From Acidobacteriota bacterium (GTDB lineage: Bacteria; Acidobacteriota; Thermoanaerobaculia; Multivoradales; J023): DNA of 64,000 nt. Of the stretch, positions 53,093-61,349 are shown one piece after another. Below the pieces are notes generated by a model. The model did no database searches, had not been told where the DNA came from, and saw only the letters and a list, made by a program, of their open reading frames with translations. The translations under genes were made by a program, and so were the position numbers. Within the stretch, counting starts at the first letter, position 1; each line of letters starts with the position of its first letter. Where the stretch lies: the NCBI GenBank assembly GCA_029263315.1, contig JAJCXR010000046.1, forward strand, positions 1 to 64,000, written 5' to 3'.

Positions 53093-53977
53093 TCAGTTGC
53101 CTCGATTGGCCCCGGCGCTGTAACGGACGACCCGGTGGATACGGTGCAGGTCCTCGGAATTGCATTCGGTGATGATGTCGAGCTGGGGAAAGCGGTGATG
53201 ATCCTCGGGATCCACCCTCCAGGCAGCGGTGAAGCGCTGCTCCTTGTCGAGAAACACGGCACCATAGCCGGCCAGGGGGGTGACGGGAAAACCCGACGAC
53301 CATAGGGTTTCAGCCACCCGTTTGTCTTCAAAATCGTAGAGGCCGTCGTCGAGCTCTCGCCGTACCCGGGGGATCTCCCGCGCCAGCGGCTCGAGGCAGC
53401 GGGTGGCGATGAAATAGCCGATGCCCGTCGCCATGTCACAGCGGTAGGGACGGGTATAGGGCGTTTCGTAGCGCGGATCTTCGCATTTGCCGACGTGCCA
53501 GGTGGCGTCAGGGAGGACCTTGCGGACCTCCAGCACACGTCCCGAGTAGGGACTGGCCCGGAAGGGCTTTTTCAACAGCTGCCGCGGGTTGACGTAGCAA
53601 TCGTCGTCCACCTTGAAGACATAGCGCAAATGTTGGGGCATTTTCTGGTGCACAAAAGCCATGGCCCGCAGCACCTTGAGCACCAGGTACTCGTAGTTGT
53701 CCCGGCTGTCGACGCTCAGCACGTCGCCCCGCAGACGGGCCGGCCGGCCGGGCTCCCCAACCACAAAGAGGTGGCGTAGGCCGAGGGGGGAGAGGTCGTT
53801 GATCCATGTGGCCCGCAGGGCCCGACGGCGGGCGCCGTGGCGGCGACAGGAAATGATCAATACCAGCACGTCTTGGCCCGGTAGCGTACGGGGTGGGCCG
53901 CCGGCACGAAGGCTCGGGGTACCGGGGGCCCAGCTCGCCGGACGAGACGGTTTGGAGGTCGACGGGGGACGGTTCAT
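53093..53977 (-). CDS. GT31-like (galactosyltransferase/fringe-type) glycosyltransferase
   Basis: ATG 53977 overlaps the upstream stop (ATGA); LVLIISCRRHGARRRALRATWI, YEYLVLKVLRAMAF, YVFKVDDDCYVNP, GIGYFIATRCLEPL, DFEDKRVAETL are GT31-type motifs. Confidence 0.8.
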   Translation of the reverse strand: MNRPPSTSKPSRPASWAPGTPSLRAGGPPRTLPGQDVLVLIISCRRHGARRRALRATWINDLSPLGLRHLFVVGEPGRPARLRGDVLSVDSRDNYEYLVLKVLRAMAFVHQKMPQHLRYVFKVDDDCYVNPRQLLKKPFRASPYSGRVLEVRKVLPDATWHVGKCEDPRYETPYTRPYRCDMATGIGYFIATRCLEPLAREIPRVRRELDDGLYDFEDKRVAETLWSSGFPVTPLAGYGAVFLDKEQRFTAAWRVDPEDHHRFPQLDIITECNSEDLHRIHRVVRYSAGANRGN

Positions 53978-56900
53978 CGGGCCACCCCGCGGCGGCTTGA
54001 CTCCGGATTGGCCAGCCGGGCTTCGACGGGCCTTTCTTCGGGTTGTACCTGCCCGGCCGGCATCTCCTCGGCCGGCGTCACCCCGGCCAGCATCCTCTCG
54101 GCCGGCATCGTCTCGGCCAGCATCGCGAGGGCCGAGGGGCGCTCCCCGTGGAGAACAAAAACGCCTCGCCTCCAGGTGGCCTCTACTAGGGCGCGGGCCG
54201 AACGGCGTCCCAGCCAGAACGCCGCCGGCCCTGCGGAGCGGCTCGGCTTGCGGTGGAAGTGCGGCCGGCTCAGATCCTCCGGTAGCAGCCGGGCCTCGCC
54301 GCCCACCTCGAGGATCCAGGCCCCGGGGAAGTCGGTGCCGGCGATCACGAAGGCGCCCTTGAGCAGGCACAGGACGCGGGCCAGCTCCTTCCTTTGGCCC
54401 ACCCGGCGACAGCGGTTGCAGTACCGCACTCCCCAGACCTCACCGTCGCGGCGCCGCGTCCCGTCCGTCGGCAGGTCGCTGGGCAACAGGGCCCGTAGCT
54501 GCACCCGACGATGGGGCGGCAGCTGGCGAGCCGCCAGGGCCCGGTCGATGTCTTGCTGGTGCGTCGCGTCGGTGACCCGGTGGGAGGTGAAGTAGATCAC
54601 CGCAGGCCCGTCATCGGGCCTAACGTCGTGGCCGTCGTCGGGACCGCCGTCGGACCCGTCGGGGGCGGACCTCAAGCGCTGGCAGAGCTCGGTGGCGGCG
54701 CGGTCGATGGCGTCATGGTGGGCGGCGATCTGGCTCGGCATGCGGTTGGCGACAAAGCGGCAGTCGGTGGCCAGGTAAACATCCGGGATGTCGTACAGCA
54801 GGCGCTCGACGGCCAGGAAGGGGGTGCCGTCGAGTAGCCAGCGGCCGTCGCGCCAGTGACGCCTGATCAAGGCCTGGGCACCGCGCCGAGACAGCAGGTA
54901 GGCGCCGGCACCCCACGCCTTGCACACCGGGTCGATGTCCTGGCGGGGCACCAAGGCGCAGCGGGTCCGCCGCAGGGCGAGGTAGTGCAGGACGTCGGTG
55001 TTGTTGCACTGCAGTTGCAGGATGTTCCAATCCGGAGGCGCGGCGGCCAGCAGATCCGCCAGGCGGTGGCCCGGCCATGCCTCGAAACCCTCGAAGACCA
55101 TGTCGTCCTCCAGCACGCAAATCCTTTCGAGGCCGGGGGTGTCGAGCATCTGGCGAGCGGCCTGCAGGTGGCTGAGCAGGGTGGCCAGATCCGCCTTGGG
55201 GCTGTTGGCACCGAGGCGATTGAGGTACGACACACCGTCGAGCTCACCCTGCTGAACATCGTGCAGGCGCTGACCATCGAGGGCCGGGAGGCGACGCCAG
55301 CTGCGTGCCCCCACGGCCCGTAGCTGACCTTCGGTGTGGCTCCGTCGGTCCCCGGCTCGATCCAGGTTGAGGTACCAGATGGGTAACCCGCTGACATGTT
55401 GCCGTTGGGCCGCCAGGCGGTGGGTGTTGGCGGCGGAGTTGAGCTGCACCCCGGCCCGCGCCTTGGCCAGGCTGCCGGTGGGGGCCACGAACTGCACCAG
55501 GTGATCGAGCCGTCGGGAGTCGTTGAGCACCTCGAGATCGAAGACGCGGAAGGCTTCGGGATGGAGTCGCGCCAACCGATCGCTATGCTCGGCGTAGAGA
55601 TCCCAGTAGGCACCCAGGGCCTCGTCCAGCCCCTGGCAGTGATCGAGCTTCGGGTAACAGGCGTCCCACTGCGGCACACTGCGCCAGCGGCTACCGTCGT
55701 GGGACATCCAGTGGTTGGCGTTGTAGGGGGCGACTTTGGCCAGGTAGCTCTGGACGGTGGCCTGCCGTTGGCGGCGCAGGCAGACGAAACGAGCTCGGAT
55801 GCCCCGACGCTCCGCCCAGCCGCGGATGGTCTCGACGTGGGGCAGGTAGTAGAAGGCCACGTCGCCGAAGACGTCCCCCCCTGCGTCGGCCAGCCGCTCC
55901 AGGTGCGCTTCCACCTGGGCCGGCGCCGCGTCCCAGGGCAGCAGCGGCGGCCGCTCGTGGCTGATCGGGGCGCCATCGAAGGCTTCCGCCAGGACTTGGG
56001 AGAGGCTGACCGTGCCGCAGCGTCCGGTGCCTAGGCCGATCACCAGGGTGCGACCGGGGCCGCGGTCCGGGGCTTCCAGGGCCCGGCGATCGAGCCCACC
56101 GGCCAGGCGGCCGAGGTCTTGTGGCCGGACGACGTCTTCGATACCACCGAGGCCGAGCTTGCGCAGCTGAAGACGGCGAAAAAAGGGCACCCGCTGCCAG
56201 CGGAAGGCATCGTACTCGGGGTTGCGCTCTGAGGTGTTGAAGGCGCTGAAGTAGGGCAGCACGGTGGCCTTCAACCGGCCCCGGGCTCGCCAGAAGAACT
56301 GCAGGTGGTCCAGGGTCTTGAGCTCGTCGTCCCAGCCGATCTGGCGGATTTTGGAGCTGCGGGCAAGGTAAAATTGGGGCACAAAATCGTAGACCGGAAA
56401 ACCCGCCACCAGGCCACGGCTGGTCTCGAAGACCTGGCGCAAGACGCCCCGATGGTGGTTTGTCGAGTGGTGGTTTATCGGGCTGCGGTTTCCTGAGCCT
56501 TGGTCCACCTCGAAACATCCCCACCAGCGGGCTGGACGATAGTAGCCGGCCACCAAGTCGAGCTCGGGCACCGTCTCCAGCACCTGCCAGGCCGCTTCGA
56601 GCCGGGTCTCCTCGTCGAAGAGGGTGTCGTCGTCGACCACCATCACGTAGGGGGTCTTCACCTGTCCGACCAAGAAGTTGCGGCCGTAGGAGGCCCCCGA
56701 ATCCCGGGGCAGGAGGTAGTAGGCGGTGATCAAACCCAGCTCGTCGTCGAAGGTACGATAACCGGAGTCGTCCGCCACCAGGATGGGGATGGCGGGGAAG
56801 CGCTTGCGGATGCTGCGCACGCAGCGTTCCAGTGACGATGGCCGCAGTAGGGTCTTGATGATGATGGTGACTGTCGCCTGGACGCCGTCCAGGGGGCTGC

Positions 56901-57003
56901 GCTCGGCGGCGGCCGGAGCCCGCCCTTGCCGAGGCGGTGGCAAGCGAACGGTGGCCCCCGTGGGTTGATCCAAGGCCGACGGGTGGAGGGTTTCGAGGCT
57001 CAT
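53974..57003 (-). CDS. Fusion protein: GT12-like glycosyltransferase + sulfotransferase + GT25-like glycosyltransferase + C-terminal Cys/repeat region
   Basis: VTIIIKTLLRPSSLERCVRSIRKRFPAIPILVADDS...SYGRNFLVGQVKTPYVMVVDDDTLFD and VPQFYLARSSKIRQIGWDDELKTLDHLQFF (GT12-like); TLVIGLGTGRCGTVSLSQVL (sulfotransferase PAPS loop); IWYLNLDRAGDRRSHTEGQL...CVLEDDMVF...WGAGAYLLSRRGAQAL (GT25). Confidence 0.8.
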   Translation of the reverse strand: MSLETLHPSALDQPTGATVRLPPPRQGRAPAAAERSPLDGVQATVTIIIKTLLRPSSLERCVRSIRKRFPAIPILVADDSGYRTFDDELGLITAYYLLPRDSGASYGRNFLVGQVKTPYVMVVDDDTLFDEETRLEAAWQVLETVPELDLVAGYYRPARWWGCFEVDQGSGNRSPINHHSTNHHRGVLRQVFETSRGLVAGFPVYDFVPQFYLARSSKIRQIGWDDELKTLDHLQFFWRARGRLKATVLPYFSAFNTSERNPEYDAFRWQRVPFFRRLQLRKLGLGGIEDVVRPQDLGRLAGGLDRRALEAPDRGPGRTLVIGLGTGRCGTVSLSQVLAEAFDGAPISHERPPLLPWDAAPAQVEAHLERLADAGGDVFGDVAFYYLPHVETIRGWAERRGIRARFVCLRRQRQATVQSYLAKVAPYNANHWMSHDGSRWRSVPQWDACYPKLDHCQGLDEALGAYWDLYAEHSDRLARLHPEAFRVFDLEVLNDSRRLDHLVQFVAPTGSLAKARAGVQLNSAANTHRLAAQRQHVSGLPIWYLNLDRAGDRRSHTEGQLRAVGARSWRRLPALDGQRLHDVQQGELDGVSYLNRLGANSPKADLATLLSHLQAARQMLDTPGLERICVLEDDMVFEGFEAWPGHRLADLLAAAPPDWNILQLQCNNTDVLHYLALRRTRCALVPRQDIDPVCKAWGAGAYLLSRRGAQALIRRHWRDGRWLLDGTPFLAVERLLYDIPDVYLATDCRFVANRMPSQIAAHHDAIDRAATELCQRLRSAPDGSDGGPDDGHDVRPDDGPAVIYFTSHRVTDATHQQDIDRALAARQLPPHRRVQLRALLPSDLPTDGTRRRDGEVWGVRYCNRCRRVGQRKELARVLCLLKGAFVIAGTDFPGAWILEVGGEARLLPEDLSRPHFHRKPSRSAGPAAFWLGRRSARALVEATWRRGVFVLHGERPSALAMLAETMPAERMLAGVTPAEEMPAGQVQPEERPVEARLANPESSRRGVAR
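54055..54129. repeat. 15-bp coding minisatellite, 5 copies
   Basis: GGCCGGCATCTCCTC / GGCCGGCGTCACCCC / GGCCAGCATCCTCTC / GGCCGGCATCGTCTC / GGCCAGCATCGCGAG; encodes 5-aa repeats MLAET MPAER MLAGV TPAEE MPAGQ on the minus strand. Confidence 0.85.
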
Positions 57004-58040
57004 GGTGTGGGACCTCCTGAGGTCTGGGGTGGTGCCAGCAGGCTGCGGTGGCGGTGATTGAATTGGCGGGCGTAGGGGTATAGCTCATCGGCCTGGTAGC
57101 CGAATCCGTGGAAGCGATGCAGGCGCCAGGGGGCCGGCGATGGGTCGACGGGTAGGGGATTGGGGGCACCTACCACCGAGTAGGTGAAACGGAAACCGCA
57201 GCCCGCCAGCACCCGATCGGTGCGGTCTTCGAGAGCCCCGTTGGGATACACGAAGTGTGGGCTGACGGCTCCCAAGTGGTGGCCTAGGAGGCATCGACAG
57301 GCCATGGCGTCGCGCCGCAGATCATGGTCCGTGCGCTGGTTCGCCGTGTCGTGAAACAGCGAGTGGGCGGCGATGGTGCAATGGGAAAAGCGGTCCAGGG
57401 CGGCGATCTGGGGCCAGCCCATGTTGCGGTGCACAAAGGGCGAGCAGCGCACGGCGGCGGTGGACACGTCATCGGTCTGCCGCCGCAGCTGGTGCATGAG
57501 GAACCCTCGTCGGCGGGGGGAGGTGCGACATCGATACTCGAAGTCCGCCGCCCCCTGCTCGGGGCACGACCAGGCCAACTCGTCGTTGGCTGCGTCGCCC
57601 AGGCGCAGGACACGTCGGTGGGTGGCGGCGAAGCGGGCTCGGACCTCTTCCCACCAAAAAATGCCCCGGGCCGAGGCCTGACGCGTCGCGATGCCGGGGC
57701 AGACCGCCAGCAGGATGGGAATCTGCTCCTGGCGCAGCCAGTATTCCAGGGGCTCGAAGGTGCCGAGGTGGGCGTCGTCGAAACAGATCAGCAGATGAGG
57801 GCCGGGGCGGGGCCGATGCCGCAATCCTTCGAGCTCTTGGGCGGCGATGAGACAAAACCCCAGCGATTCCAAGAGACGGATTTCTGCCAGGCAGCGCTGC
57901 GGTGTGATGTCGAGATCGTGCACCGTCAGGCGCTGGGGGTCGGTCTCCAAACCGTGGTAGACCAGGATACTGACGAAGCAGCGGTCGCGGTCCAGGGGGC
58001 GGAATGCATCACCGAGGGAGGTGGGCAGGGGAGAGCCCAT
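57000..58040 (-). CDS. Polysaccharide deacetylase-family protein
   Basis: ATG 58040 within ORF 57000-58715: FVSILVYHGLETDPQ...HLLICFDDAHLGTFEPLEYWLRQEQIPILLAVCPG...HSLFHDTANQRTDHDLRRD, YPNGALEDRTDRVL. Stop/start ATGA overlap with the next gene. Confidence 0.8.
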   Translation of the reverse strand: MGSPLPTSLGDAFRPLDRDRCFVSILVYHGLETDPQRLTVHDLDITPQRCLAEIRLLESLGFCLIAAQELEGLRHRPRPGPHLLICFDDAHLGTFEPLEYWLRQEQIPILLAVCPGIATRQASARGIFWWEEVRARFAATHRRVLRLGDAANDELAWSCPEQGAADFEYRCRTSPRRRGFLMHQLRRQTDDVSTAAVRCSPFVHRNMGWPQIAALDRFSHCTIAAHSLFHDTANQRTDHDLRRDAMACRCLLGHHLGAVSPHFVYPNGALEDRTDRVLAGCGFRFTYSVVGAPNPLPVDPSPAPWRLHRFHGFGYQADELYPYARQFNHRHRSLLAPPQTSGGPTP

Positions 58041-58843
58041 CAGCGGGCCTCGAGGGCAACCAGGTAGTTGACCGCCCGTCGGCGCAGCGCGGGGAGGCGC
58101 CGGCCCAGGTGGCGCAAGTGGAGATCCCAGCGGGCACGCCGTGCCTCGGCGATGAAGAAGCGGTGGGGAAAAAACAGGCTGCCCCGGGCATCGCGCAGCT
58201 CGAAGCCGCTGTCGTCGGCCAGGCGGTGGAATTCCCGCGGCGTGTAACGACGGTGACTGACATCCTCGGCCGGGGGCGTCGACGTAGGCTGGCCCTCGGT
58301 TGCCGCGCTGAGCAGGCCTCGCAGCCTGGCCAACCCCCGATGCAGCGGGATGAAGAGATCGTCCGCCCAGGGGTGGCGGTTCCAGATCTGCAACACCGCC
58401 ACACCACCCGGCGTCAGCATGCTGTGTAGATGCTGCAGCAGGGCCCTGGCATCGTCGAAGTACTCGACGAAACCTAGGCCGATGAGGCCGTCGTAGGGGC
58501 CCGGAAGGTCCCCGGCCAGGGCGTCCCGGACTTCGAATCGGCAGGACGACTCGAGCCCCGCTTCGGCGGCGTTGCGACAGGCCTGCTCGATCATGCCGGC
58601 GCTGAAGTCGATGCCGTGCAGATGGTAGCCGGCCCGGGCCAGGACCAGGCTGGCGTGGCCACAACCGCAGCCCAGATCGAGGATGCGGCCGCCCGGTCGG
58701 ATGTGTCGACGGCACAGCTCGACGCCGTCATCGCGGCGCCACTGGATGCCCAGGGCGGGATAGTCATGGCGGTGATAGAGGTTTTCCCAGGCCCTCTTCT
58801 CGCGCTCGAATTTGGCCAGGATCGAGGCACTTTCGCATTGCAT
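58040..58843 (-). CDS. SAM-dependent class I methyltransferase
   Basis: ATG 58843 (MQCESASILAKFEREKRAWENLYHRHDYPALG); GGRILDLGCGCGHASLVLARAGYHLHGIDFSAGMIEQA motif I; LTPGGVAVLQIW. Confidence 0.9.
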   Translation of the reverse strand: MQCESASILAKFEREKRAWENLYHRHDYPALGIQWRRDDGVELCRRHIRPGGRILDLGCGCGHASLVLARAGYHLHGIDFSAGMIEQACRNAAEAGLESSCRFEVRDALAGDLPGPYDGLIGLGFVEYFDDARALLQHLHSMLTPGGVAVLQIWNRHPWADDLFIPLHRGLARLRGLLSAATEGQPTSTPPAEDVSHRRYTPREFHRLADDSGFELRDARGSLFFPHRFFIAEARRARWDLHLRHLGRRLPALRRRAVNYLVALEAR

Positions 58844-61349
58844 AGGAATCTCCTTCTCGGTGGTGGTTGGCCGCCTTGTGGTGGTTAGCCGCCCCGCGGT
58901 GGAGCAACTCGGCGATGGCTCGGCGACGGGTTTCATAGAGCCGAGGATCGGTGACGAAGTCGTCGACCTCGGTGATCAGGTCGGAGAGATCGAGCAGGCG
59001 CTGGGCCTGGCGGGCAGCCTGAGCCGACAGCCGGCCGCGCTGTAGCTCGCTGGCCAGGCGGCTCAGCAACTCATGGTCTTGGGAACCCAATTGCAGGGTT
59101 TCCAGGCGCAGCGAGCTGTAGGGTTCGAGCTCTGGGCCCGGGTAGAGCAGGTTGCCGTTGCCGGAGCCCCTGAGGACGCCGTCCAAAGTTTGCTGGGCCC
59201 GCCAGGGGCTGGCGGGCCAGTGGGGACGCTGGTCCATGTTGCGGTGCCAGTGGCAGGTTTCCCAGTAGAGCAAGGCTCCAAAGTCATAGTGGAAGGTCAG
59301 CCAGAAGAGGATGCGCTGGTGGAGGGGGGCGGCTTCGAGCCGTAGGCTGGGAAACGGCGGGGCGTCGTCGGTGAGGTACCACCATAGGCTGGCCCCGCGA
59401 CGCCGCAGCTCCCGGATCCGGTCCGGGTGGCGTGCCACCCAAGCGACGTGTGGACACCAAACATCCACGTAGGGGGCCAGCGCCACCGTCGGGTCGTCCC
59501 GGAAGAAGGTCAAGACGACTTCGAGACGTGGGGCGCGGCGACGGCAGGCGGCGAGGAAAGGTTCGATGCGCCCATAGAGCTCGGCGCCGGGCTCGTCGTA
59601 GGTATAAAGAAAGACCCGCGCCTCGCCCCGTTGGCTTTCGACCTGAGCCGCCCAGCGGGGTAGCTGGTCGAGCCAGTGCTGCTCCGCCGTGCTGGGGAAG
59701 GTGCCGTCCAGCTCCAGCAGACGATTCGAGGCGCGAGCCGCCCACAGCAACCCGAAGCGCTGTTTCTGGCGCCGCAGGATGGCCGGCGAGCTCGGCCCCC
59801 GGGGGATCTGGGGGGCGTGCCACCAGTTGCAGGAGCCCACCAGGGGGTCGGCGTGCAGGCGGCGTCGGGCAAGGAATTCGATCCAGCGTTCGAGGCTGGC
59901 CCCGTCGAGCTCGCGGCGGCCATAGAAACGCGCGACGGCATGGTCGTCGAGGCCCACCAGGACGGGCAGAGAGGGGCGTTGTGGCAGCTCCGGGTCGAGA
60001 ATGCGCAGCCGCATCTCGAAGGTCGTGAGCACCGCGCCTGCGATGCGCAGGCTCACCAGGCCCAACATCAGGCCGGGCCGGGAGTGGGCCGGCACCTCGA
60101 TACGGATCCAGAAGACCCGAGATGTGTCCGCGGCGAGTCCCAAGGGCGTGCGGGGACACAGGGCGTCGGGCCAGGGGTCGGTGCGACCCGGGACCTCTCC
60201 GGAGGTTGGCGAGGAGCCCTCGGAGGTGGCCTGAATCTCGATCGCACGGGCGGTGAACCAGGCGATATGGGCGGCGACGCCGGAGTCGTCGCGGTCCTCG
60301 CACCTTGCCACCACCAAATCGACCTCGGTCAGCTCTTCGAGGCTGTGCAAGACGATCTGGGCGGCGGCCATGCCGCCCTTCGGCGCCCAGAGATCGAGGC
60401 GGGTTGGGTCGTCGGCCGGCCCCAGCCGGGGAAGGGACGAGCGGGGCTGCTTGATGAATTCGGGCATAGCCACGGCGACGGCGGCCATCTCGGCGGCGGG
60501 ACCCCGTGGGGGAGCGGCCCGGCGCAGCTCCAGCCAGGCCTCCAGTCGGCGGACAGTGACCTCGGCTCGATGTCGTACCAGCGTCGGGTCCGGGGCCTCC
60601 GGATGCAGGTTGGATAGGGCCCGGTGCGCCGCAACCAAGGACTTCCGGTGCTGCTCTAAACGAATCGTGAGTAGCTCCTCGACCCTCTTGGGCAGGGCCG
60701 ACAAGCCGCGGCGCAGGTCTCGCAGCCGGCGCAGCAGTCGGCACATGGTCTCGGCCAGGTGCCCCATCGGGGTAACGAAGCACAGGTGGTCAATCGTCAG
60801 CTCGCCCACCGCCGGTGGATTCGGTAGGCCATCGGTCGCCGGCCACAGCACAAACCCCGCCCGCCGCAGGGGGAAGGTCAGCGCGCCATCGCCATCGCCG
60901 CCCCACGAGGCCCGGTGGAGACCCTTCAAGTCGACCTGCCAGGCCCCGCCGGAGTGGGGACAGGGGCCGTAGGAATAGAGCTCGCCGCCGTCGTCCTCCA
61001 CCAGCAGGACGAGCTGGATCGTCGCTTCCGACGCCCGGGACGCCGACTCGGGCGGGGTCACCGAGGAATTCGCTGGGGGCTGAGCCCTGTGACTCCACTC
61101 GATGTCTACCCAGTGGTGCAGTGGTGTGACGGTCAGGGGCGGTCCGAGCAGCAGGACCCGTTCCCCGGGCTGGTTCTCGAAACGGTAACTCAACCGCAGC
61201 CGTCCGGCTGCGGCCGTCAGATGGGCCGGACTCGCTTCGTCCACTCGCCAGCCCGAGGCCGTCCGCCGATCCAAGGCCCGCAGGACGCCGGATGGCGGAA
61301 GGTTGTGGCGTCGTCGGGCGGATGCAGTGTGCACGGTATTCAAATACAT
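58764..61349 (-). CDS. DUF4091-like glycoside-hydrolase-type protein
   Basis: 861 aa; ARVFLYTYDEPGAELYGRIEPFLAACRRRAPRLEVVLTFFRDD, PYVDVWCPHVAWV, ASLWWYLTDDAPP, GNGNLLYPGPE. Pattern of DUF4091 proteins. Confidence 0.7.
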   Translation of the reverse strand: MYLNTVHTASARRRHNLPPSGVLRALDRRTASGWRVDEASPAHLTAAAGRLRLSYRFENQPGERVLLLGPPLTVTPLHHWVDIEWSHRAQPPANSSVTPPESASRASEATIQLVLLVEDDGGELYSYGPCPHSGGAWQVDLKGLHRASWGGDGDGALTFPLRRAGFVLWPATDGLPNPPAVGELTIDHLCFVTPMGHLAETMCRLLRRLRDLRRGLSALPKRVEELLTIRLEQHRKSLVAAHRALSNLHPEAPDPTLVRHRAEVTVRRLEAWLELRRAAPPRGPAAEMAAVAVAMPEFIKQPRSSLPRLGPADDPTRLDLWAPKGGMAAAQIVLHSLEELTEVDLVVARCEDRDDSGVAAHIAWFTARAIEIQATSEGSSPTSGEVPGRTDPWPDALCPRTPLGLAADTSRVFWIRIEVPAHSRPGLMLGLVSLRIAGAVLTTFEMRLRILDPELPQRPSLPVLVGLDDHAVARFYGRRELDGASLERWIEFLARRRLHADPLVGSCNWWHAPQIPRGPSSPAILRRQKQRFGLLWAARASNRLLELDGTFPSTAEQHWLDQLPRWAAQVESQRGEARVFLYTYDEPGAELYGRIEPFLAACRRRAPRLEVVLTFFRDDPTVALAPYVDVWCPHVAWVARHPDRIRELRRRGASLWWYLTDDAPPFPSLRLEAAPLHQRILFWLTFHYDFGALLYWETCHWHRNMDQRPHWPASPWRAQQTLDGVLRGSGNGNLLYPGPELEPYSSLRLETLQLGSQDHELLSRLASELQRGRLSAQAARQAQRLLDLSDLITEVDDFVTDPRLYETRRRAIAELLHRGAANHHKAANHHREGDSYAMRKCLDPGQIRAREEGLGKPLSPP

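Follow-up and report, generated by a model that had tools for sequence, protein, structure and literature searches.

A bacterial gene predicted to join GT12-like glycosyltransferase, sulfotransferase and GT25 domains in one protein

Can a single bacterial polypeptide carry the domains needed to place a sugar, sulfate it and add a second sugar? The question is raised by a gene at 53974-57003 on the minus strand of a 64,000-nucleotide stretch of DNA (the window) from an Acidobacteriota bacterium (assembly GCA_029263315.1, contig JAJCXR010000046.1, positions 1 to 64,000). A reading made from the letters without database searches (the sequence-only reading) described its product as a fusion of three domains: an N-terminal glycosyltransferase resembling animal B4GALNT enzymes of family GT12, a sulfotransferase, and a GT25 glycosyltransferase. 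Profile tests confirm all three identities, the activities being predicted; the count did not hold, as the protein has four domains rather than three. The fourth, a degenerate second copy of the GT25 domain, had been overlooked, as had the operon around the gene. With moderate confidence, we favor the view that this protein acts in the cytoplasm as an assembly line that would build a sulfated glycan by N-acetylhexosamine (HexNAc) addition, sulfation and the addition of a second sugar.

The gene itself appears intact. The 1009-codon open reading frame (ORF) that had been proposed is present and uninterrupted, running from an ATG to a TGA with zero internal stops. AGGAGG lies 8-9 nucleotides upstream of the ATG, and the TGA shares the sequence ATGA (53974-53977) with the ATG of the next gene. 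Taken from the N- to the C-terminal domain, the G+C content at third codon positions (GC3) is 0.82, 0.87, 0.85 and 0.86, and this evenness across all four gives no hint of a chimera or a frameshift. The gene is present in single copy within the 7.99-Mb genome, and no second assembly containing it was found. Inspection by eye revealed no obvious signal peptide in the protein, from which we infer that it is cytoplasmic.

Is the N-terminal domain truly related to GT12, or is it a generic GT2 glycosyltransferase? The domain contains the motifs IIIKTLLR, VADDS, YGRNFLVGQVKTPYVMVVDDD and QFYLARSSKIRQIGWDDELKTLDHLQFF, and the B4GALNT/GT12 pattern attributed to it stands well above chance: when it was searched against all PDB chains with phmmer, human B4GALNT1 (9h6j) was the sole match with E<1 (E=1.2e-25), with 37% identity over 207 positions. 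A profile built from 15 related GT12-like domains (profile A4) matched B4GALNT1 at E=5.4e-42, while the next chain, which was also the best GT2 match, was the GalNAc5-diNAcBac-PP-undecaprenol glucosyltransferase at E=2.1e-12. Pfam assigns the N-terminus to Glycos_transf_2 (E=8.8e-8). Because human B4GALNT1 likewise scores as Glycos_transf_2, this assignment cannot separate GT12 from GT2, and the likeness to GT12 is the more specific of the two. The PDB match, the gap in the profile A4 search, the donor-site residues and the Pfam score of B4GALNT1 itself together rule out a generic GT2 identity.

The donor site can be compared residue by residue. Five donor-site residues of B4GALNT1 are conserved in GT12 only: K284, N437, R457, Y501 and R505 (PMC12217166). 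Aligned with human B4GALNT1, the fusion keeps three of the five (K284 as K50, Y501 as Y264 and R505 as R268) and differs at two (N437 to Gln210 and R457 to Thr230); H483 is replaced by Asn256. The equivalent of R288 is R54, and those of D356 and D358 are D124 and D126. The Tyr and Arg of the Y501/R505 pair are invariant in all of the prokaryotic and phage GT12-like domains aligned (21/21), the Asn of the N437 column is kept in most relatives, and the Arg of the R457 column is kept in none of them. GT12 belongs to those inverting GT-A families that lack the xED catalytic Asp (PMC7185993). The fusion has LDH at this position, and the His, which B4GALNT1 also has, is invariant across the GT12-like family. 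In a small tree in which eukaryotes are represented by one sequence only, human B4GALNT1, the fusion domain and phage locus L031 group together with a support of 0.96. Judged by these comparisons, the N-terminal domain is GT12-like and nearest to GT12.

UDP-N-acetylgalactosamine (UDP-GalNAc; UDP, uridine diphosphate) is the likely donor of this domain, yet unproven, because three of the five GT12-only residues are kept and two are changed. Alternatively, the architecture could be as described, but with the first domain belonging to a sister group of GT12 that uses another donor (e.g. UDP-Glc, UDP-Gal, UDP-GlcNAc or UDP-GalA) and is no GalNAc transferase. The substitutions N437Q, R457T and H483N fall at donor-site positions, as this alternative would predict, and profile A4 also reaches the GT2 glucosyltransferase and a chondroitin synthase, though far more weakly than B4GALNT1. 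Lys284, Tyr501 and Arg505 are nonetheless kept, the identity to B4GALNT1 and the grouping with the human protein point toward GT12 proper, and the operon includes a homolog of β-N-acetylgalactosaminidases. We consider a different donor unlikely, although it is the most serious of the alternatives.

The third assignment, GT25, was borne out by matches to Pfam Glyco_transf_25 (E=2.5e-6; 28.0 bits against a cut-off of 24) and to PHROG 2835 (E=7.5e-19), and by an intact LEDD motif. Two scans of viral contigs recovered no GT25 relatives. An Asp/Gly-rich linker separates this domain from the second copy (residues 798-985), which matches the fusion's own GT25 by blastp (E=2.8e-5). The Smith-Waterman score between the two copies is 76, compared to a mean of 33 (sd 5.2) and a maximum of 60 over 2000 shuffles. 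The second copy has lost the acidic catalytic Asp pair and is missing about 50 residues, and its LEVG is likely what remains of LEDD. By alignment, then, it is a homologous but decayed GT25, predicted to be non-working. Because AlphaFold, run without an alignment on residues 535-1009, gave a predicted local distance difference test (pLDDT) score of only 31, the fold of this copy rests on sequence only.

A dead domain might mean that the whole fusion is inactive or partly decayed, the product of a degenerating gene. The losses in the second GT25 copy and the singleton architecture would both fit this explanation. On the other hand, the 1009 codons are free of stops and strongly GC3-biased in every domain, the catalytic motifs of the other three domains are intact, and start and stop codons overlap those of both neighbors. 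We therefore think decay of the gene improbable.

The middle domain had been called a sulfotransferase from a loop that would bind 3'-phosphoadenosine 5'-phosphosulfate (PAPS). The loop GLGTGRCGTVSL is indeed present, and a family profile identifies the domain as a sulfotransferase. Its 5'-phosphosulfate-binding (5'-PSB) loop reads GTGRCGT, with R328 ahead of the GT pair. Invariant among 22 family sequences are Gly-x-Gly-x-Gly-Arg-Cys-Gly, a His-Glu, and an Arg and a Ser exactly 8 apart; the invariant GRCG and R-x7-S motifs match the 5'- and 3'-phosphate-binding motifs of PAPS enzymes. The same Arg and Ser are also kept in a distinct sulfotransferase-like domain of L056-L058, described below. 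Pfam matched Sulfotransfer_3 in 14/22 family members and Sulfotransfer_4 in 12/22, with E-values down to 2.5e-10, and a search of NCBIfam with the sulfotransferase family gave no match. The AlphaFold model of the domain has a pLDDT of 91. Foldseek matched this model, at weak E-values, to sulfotransferases as well as P-loop kinases; the best E-value belonged to a gluconokinase, and the top query TM-score among the matches listed belonged to a tyrosylprotein sulfotransferase (8w5z, 0.57). Altogether, the family profile and the motifs identify the middle domain as a sulfotransferase of predicted activity. The Foldseek placement among kinases might suggest a P-loop kinase or some other domain that binds nucleotides instead. 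This is the least probable alternative and very unlikely, since a Walker A GK[ST] is absent, the GTGRCGT loop is that of PAPS enzymes, the R-x7-S is invariant, most family members match Sulfotransfer_3 or Sulfotransfer_4, and 8w5z leads by TM-score among the matches listed; a kinase-type P-loop was rejected on the motifs and the Pfam family matches. The same genome encodes an adenosine 5'-phosphosulfate (APS) kinase, within a 666-aa frame, so PAPS can be made.

How might these domains act together? In the assembly-line scheme, the GT12-like domain would act first, using a UDP-sugar to add a residue, most likely GalNAc or a different HexNAc, to a glycan acceptor carried by a lipid or a protein. 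Sulfate from PAPS would then be moved by the fused sulfotransferase to the newly added sugar or to its neighbor, and the GT25 domain would add the next sugar, with the dead GT25 copy perhaps serving as a docking or scaffold part. Chain extension could fall to the GT31-like protein of the coupled gene, and the glycan could be edited by the products of the other operon genes, namely the deacetylase, the methyltransferase and the GalNAcase-like protein. Several observations weigh against this scheme. The sulfotransferase domain of the fusion, taken alone, falls under every Pfam cut-off (Sulfotransfer_4, E 0.012). Two of the GT12-only residues, as well as H483, are replaced. No sugar export or polymerization gene was identified adjoining the fusion. 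Finally, the full four-domain architecture was found in this one genome only; among 58 relatives and ~396 genomes of the phylum the fusion was absent, and only partial domains were seen.

We asked whether parts of this architecture recur elsewhere. A scan of genome contigs was keyed on the exact peptide GLGTGRCGT, and its 15 loci are thus a lower bound; 22 viral loci were gathered by the sulfotransferase alone and afterwards scanned with domain profiles. A strong GT12-like domain is adjacent or fused to the sulfotransferase in 9/22 viral loci, or 7 once near-identical ones are collapsed. In Salinibacter phages, the sulfotransferase and the GT12-like protein are encoded by two overlapping genes that come straight after the gene for the major head protein (phrog_10), and the same head-protein-proximal arrangement is found in L021:1472-4717 and L030:1677-4909. 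This placement suggests that the pair takes part in sulfated-glycan decoration of virions. L004:4640-7781 is the pair of Salinibacter phage 10_1, and about 184 Salinibacter records occur among these divergent phages.

The two domains are also found in single chains. Planctomycetales bacterium ZRK34 (L050) encodes a 534-aa sulfotransferase-GT12 fusion on a complete chromosome, and two viral contigs (L032:2836-5742 and L033:2836-5745) encode 970-aa proteins composed of a sulfotransferase, a GT12-like domain, a middle stretch that looks glycosyltransferase-like by eye, and GT31. In L032, the gene is found downstream of one for a tail tape-measure protein. In genome G388, of the same phylum as the fusion, three GT12-like proteins (L056:811-2577, L057:814-2391 and L058:961-2418) end in a different C-terminal domain with HSGT, KDPR and R-x7-S, which is sulfotransferase-like by motif only and gave no match in Pfam. 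In L018, L038, L040, L042 and L052, the fusion partners of the same sulfotransferase family are other glycosyltransferases. A 617-aa protein at L039:434-2284 combines a sulfotransferase of this family with a PqqD-like domain at its end.

GT12 and GT31 are fused or neighboring in L003, L010, L011, L014, L015 and L032, with GT12-like and GT31-like domains fused in L003:1324-2952, L011:2962-4458, L014:1132-2739 and L015:2962-4521. This pairing matches the GT31-like gene beside the fusion. When the GT31-like protein was searched against G388, G103 and G130, no match reached E<=0.001; a GT31 domain in a G130 protein was detected by profile. The GT12-GT31 fusions bring to mind ganglioside synthesis, with its B4GALNT1 and B3GALT steps. 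Taken together, the partner domains of the fusion form a recurrent set, though its own four-domain order was not found in any other genome.

Along the minus strand, the genes of the operon are ordered GH123-like, methyltransferase, polysaccharide deacetylase, fusion and GT31-like, with overlapping starts and stops throughout (Table 1). The GT31-like protein matches Pfam Galactosyl_T (1.7e-14), its best PDB match is B3GALT5 (E=1.6e-6), and its DDD and ED motifs align with those of other GT31-like domains. The best PDB match of the GH123-like protein is 8k2j (E=1.8e-11, with the DEP aligned), an oligosaccharide/monosaccharide-releasing β-N-acetylgalactosaminidase of the kind described in PMC11087588. 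This GalNAcase homolog opens the operon without an obvious signal peptide, and one would not expect a biosynthetic operon to encode a hydrolase that stays in the cytoplasm. The 64,000-nucleotide window contained no RNA families or tRNAs.

Table 1. Coordinates of the fusion gene, its domains and motifs, and the neighboring genes of the operon
Feature	Coordinates	Strand	Evidence
Fusion gene, GT12-like/sulfotransferase/GT25/degenerate GT25, 1009 aa	53974..57003	-	Intact ORF, ribosome-binding site, ATGA overlap, even GC3
GT12-like GT-A domain, residues 40-300	56104..56886	-	phmmer to B4GALNT1 9h6j; profile A4
DDD metal/UDP motif, residues 124-126 (= D356-D358 of B4GALNT1)	56626..56634	-	Alignment
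Sulfotransferase domain, residues 317-530	55414..56055	-	Family Pfam matches; AlphaFold pLDDT 91; Foldseek
5'-PSB loop GLGTGRCGTVSL, within residues 320-334	56002..56046	-	G-R-C-G invariant, 22 sequences
3'-phosphate-binding motif R411-x7-S419	55747..55773	-	Both residues invariant, 22 sequences
GT25 domain, residues 536-795, LEDD at 631-634	54619..55398	-	Pfam Glyco_transf_25; PHROG 2835
Degenerate second GT25-like copy, residues 798-985	54049..54612	-	blastp; Smith-Waterman
GT31-like transferase, 294 aa, DDD + ED motifs kept, 4-nt overlap with fusion	53093..53977	-	Pfam Galactosyl_T; B3GALT5; alignment
Polysaccharide deacetylase-like gene, TGATG start overlap at 58040	57000..58040	-	Pfam Polysacc_deac_1 5.2e-5
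S-adenosylmethionine (SAM)-dependent methyltransferase gene	58040..58843	-	Pfam Methyltransf_23 2.7e-17; start with AAGGAG
GH123-like β-N-acetylgalactosaminidase homolog, 861 aa, DEP kept	58764..61349	-	Pfam GH123_cat 3e-9; PDB 8k2j

Each single domain of the fusion belongs to a known kind, and in the open-access literature we found neither GT12-like enzymes from prokaryotes nor fusions of GT12 with a sulfotransferase described. If the predicted activities hold, the protein would be a soluble one-chain enzyme that places and extends a sulfated HexNAc, useful for the synthesis of sulfated glycans, and it would offer a way to trace how GM2/GD2 synthase arose. That its first two domains recur together in phages and bacteria suggests a dedicated way to build sulfated sugar decorations, and their location beside phage head genes makes a testable prediction, namely virions decorated with sulfated glycans. 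A possible but tentative account of their history is that the GT12-like domains are an ancient prokaryotic and phage group, repeatedly paired with sulfotransferases and GT31 for sulfated GalNAc glycans, from which animal B4GALNT1 derived; the fusion and L031 would be its nearest prokaryotic relatives found.

How does the fusion compare with known systems? Like B4GALNT1 (GM2/GD2 synthase, CAZy GT12), its first domain has a GT-A core with KTxLR, ADDS, DDD, ARxxKxRxxGxDxxLxxxxHLxFF and Y-x3-R, and a His instead of the xED Asp. Unlike B4GALNT1, it has no N-terminal dimerization domain and no transmembrane anchor was seen, N437, R457 and H483 are replaced, and it is joined to a sulfotransferase and GT25. 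The second domain shares with the bacterial PAPS sulfotransferases of Sulfotransfer_3 and Sulfotransfer_4 a predicted P-loop fold, a 5'-PSB GxGRCGT and a 3'-phosphate-binding R-x7-S, but its family is a divergent one, in which a His-Glu following strand 2 is invariant and whose members often are joined to glycosyltransferases or lie next to them. The LEDD motif is that of GT25 enzymes, which include lipopolysaccharide glycosyltransferases and the procollagen galactosyltransferases COLGALT1/2, and the two tandem GT-A copies resemble those of COLGALT (PMC7185993); here, however, the second copy lacks catalytic residues, and the pair is located behind GT12 and a sulfotransferase. A glycosyltransferase copy without DxD beside active transferases recalls COSMC (C1GALT1C1), an inactive GT-A protein that aids an active partner, as a functional model only: COSMC belongs to a different family, GT31, and a chaperone role is not supported for the fusion copy. 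Bacterial sulfated glycosaminoglycan-like exopolymers are known from Pontiella, where the genes are separate (PMC7356697). The ZRK34 protein and those of L032 and L033 likewise combine the same sulfotransferase family and a GT12-like domain in one chain, but in the reverse domain order and without GT25, the L032 and L033 proteins ending in GT31.

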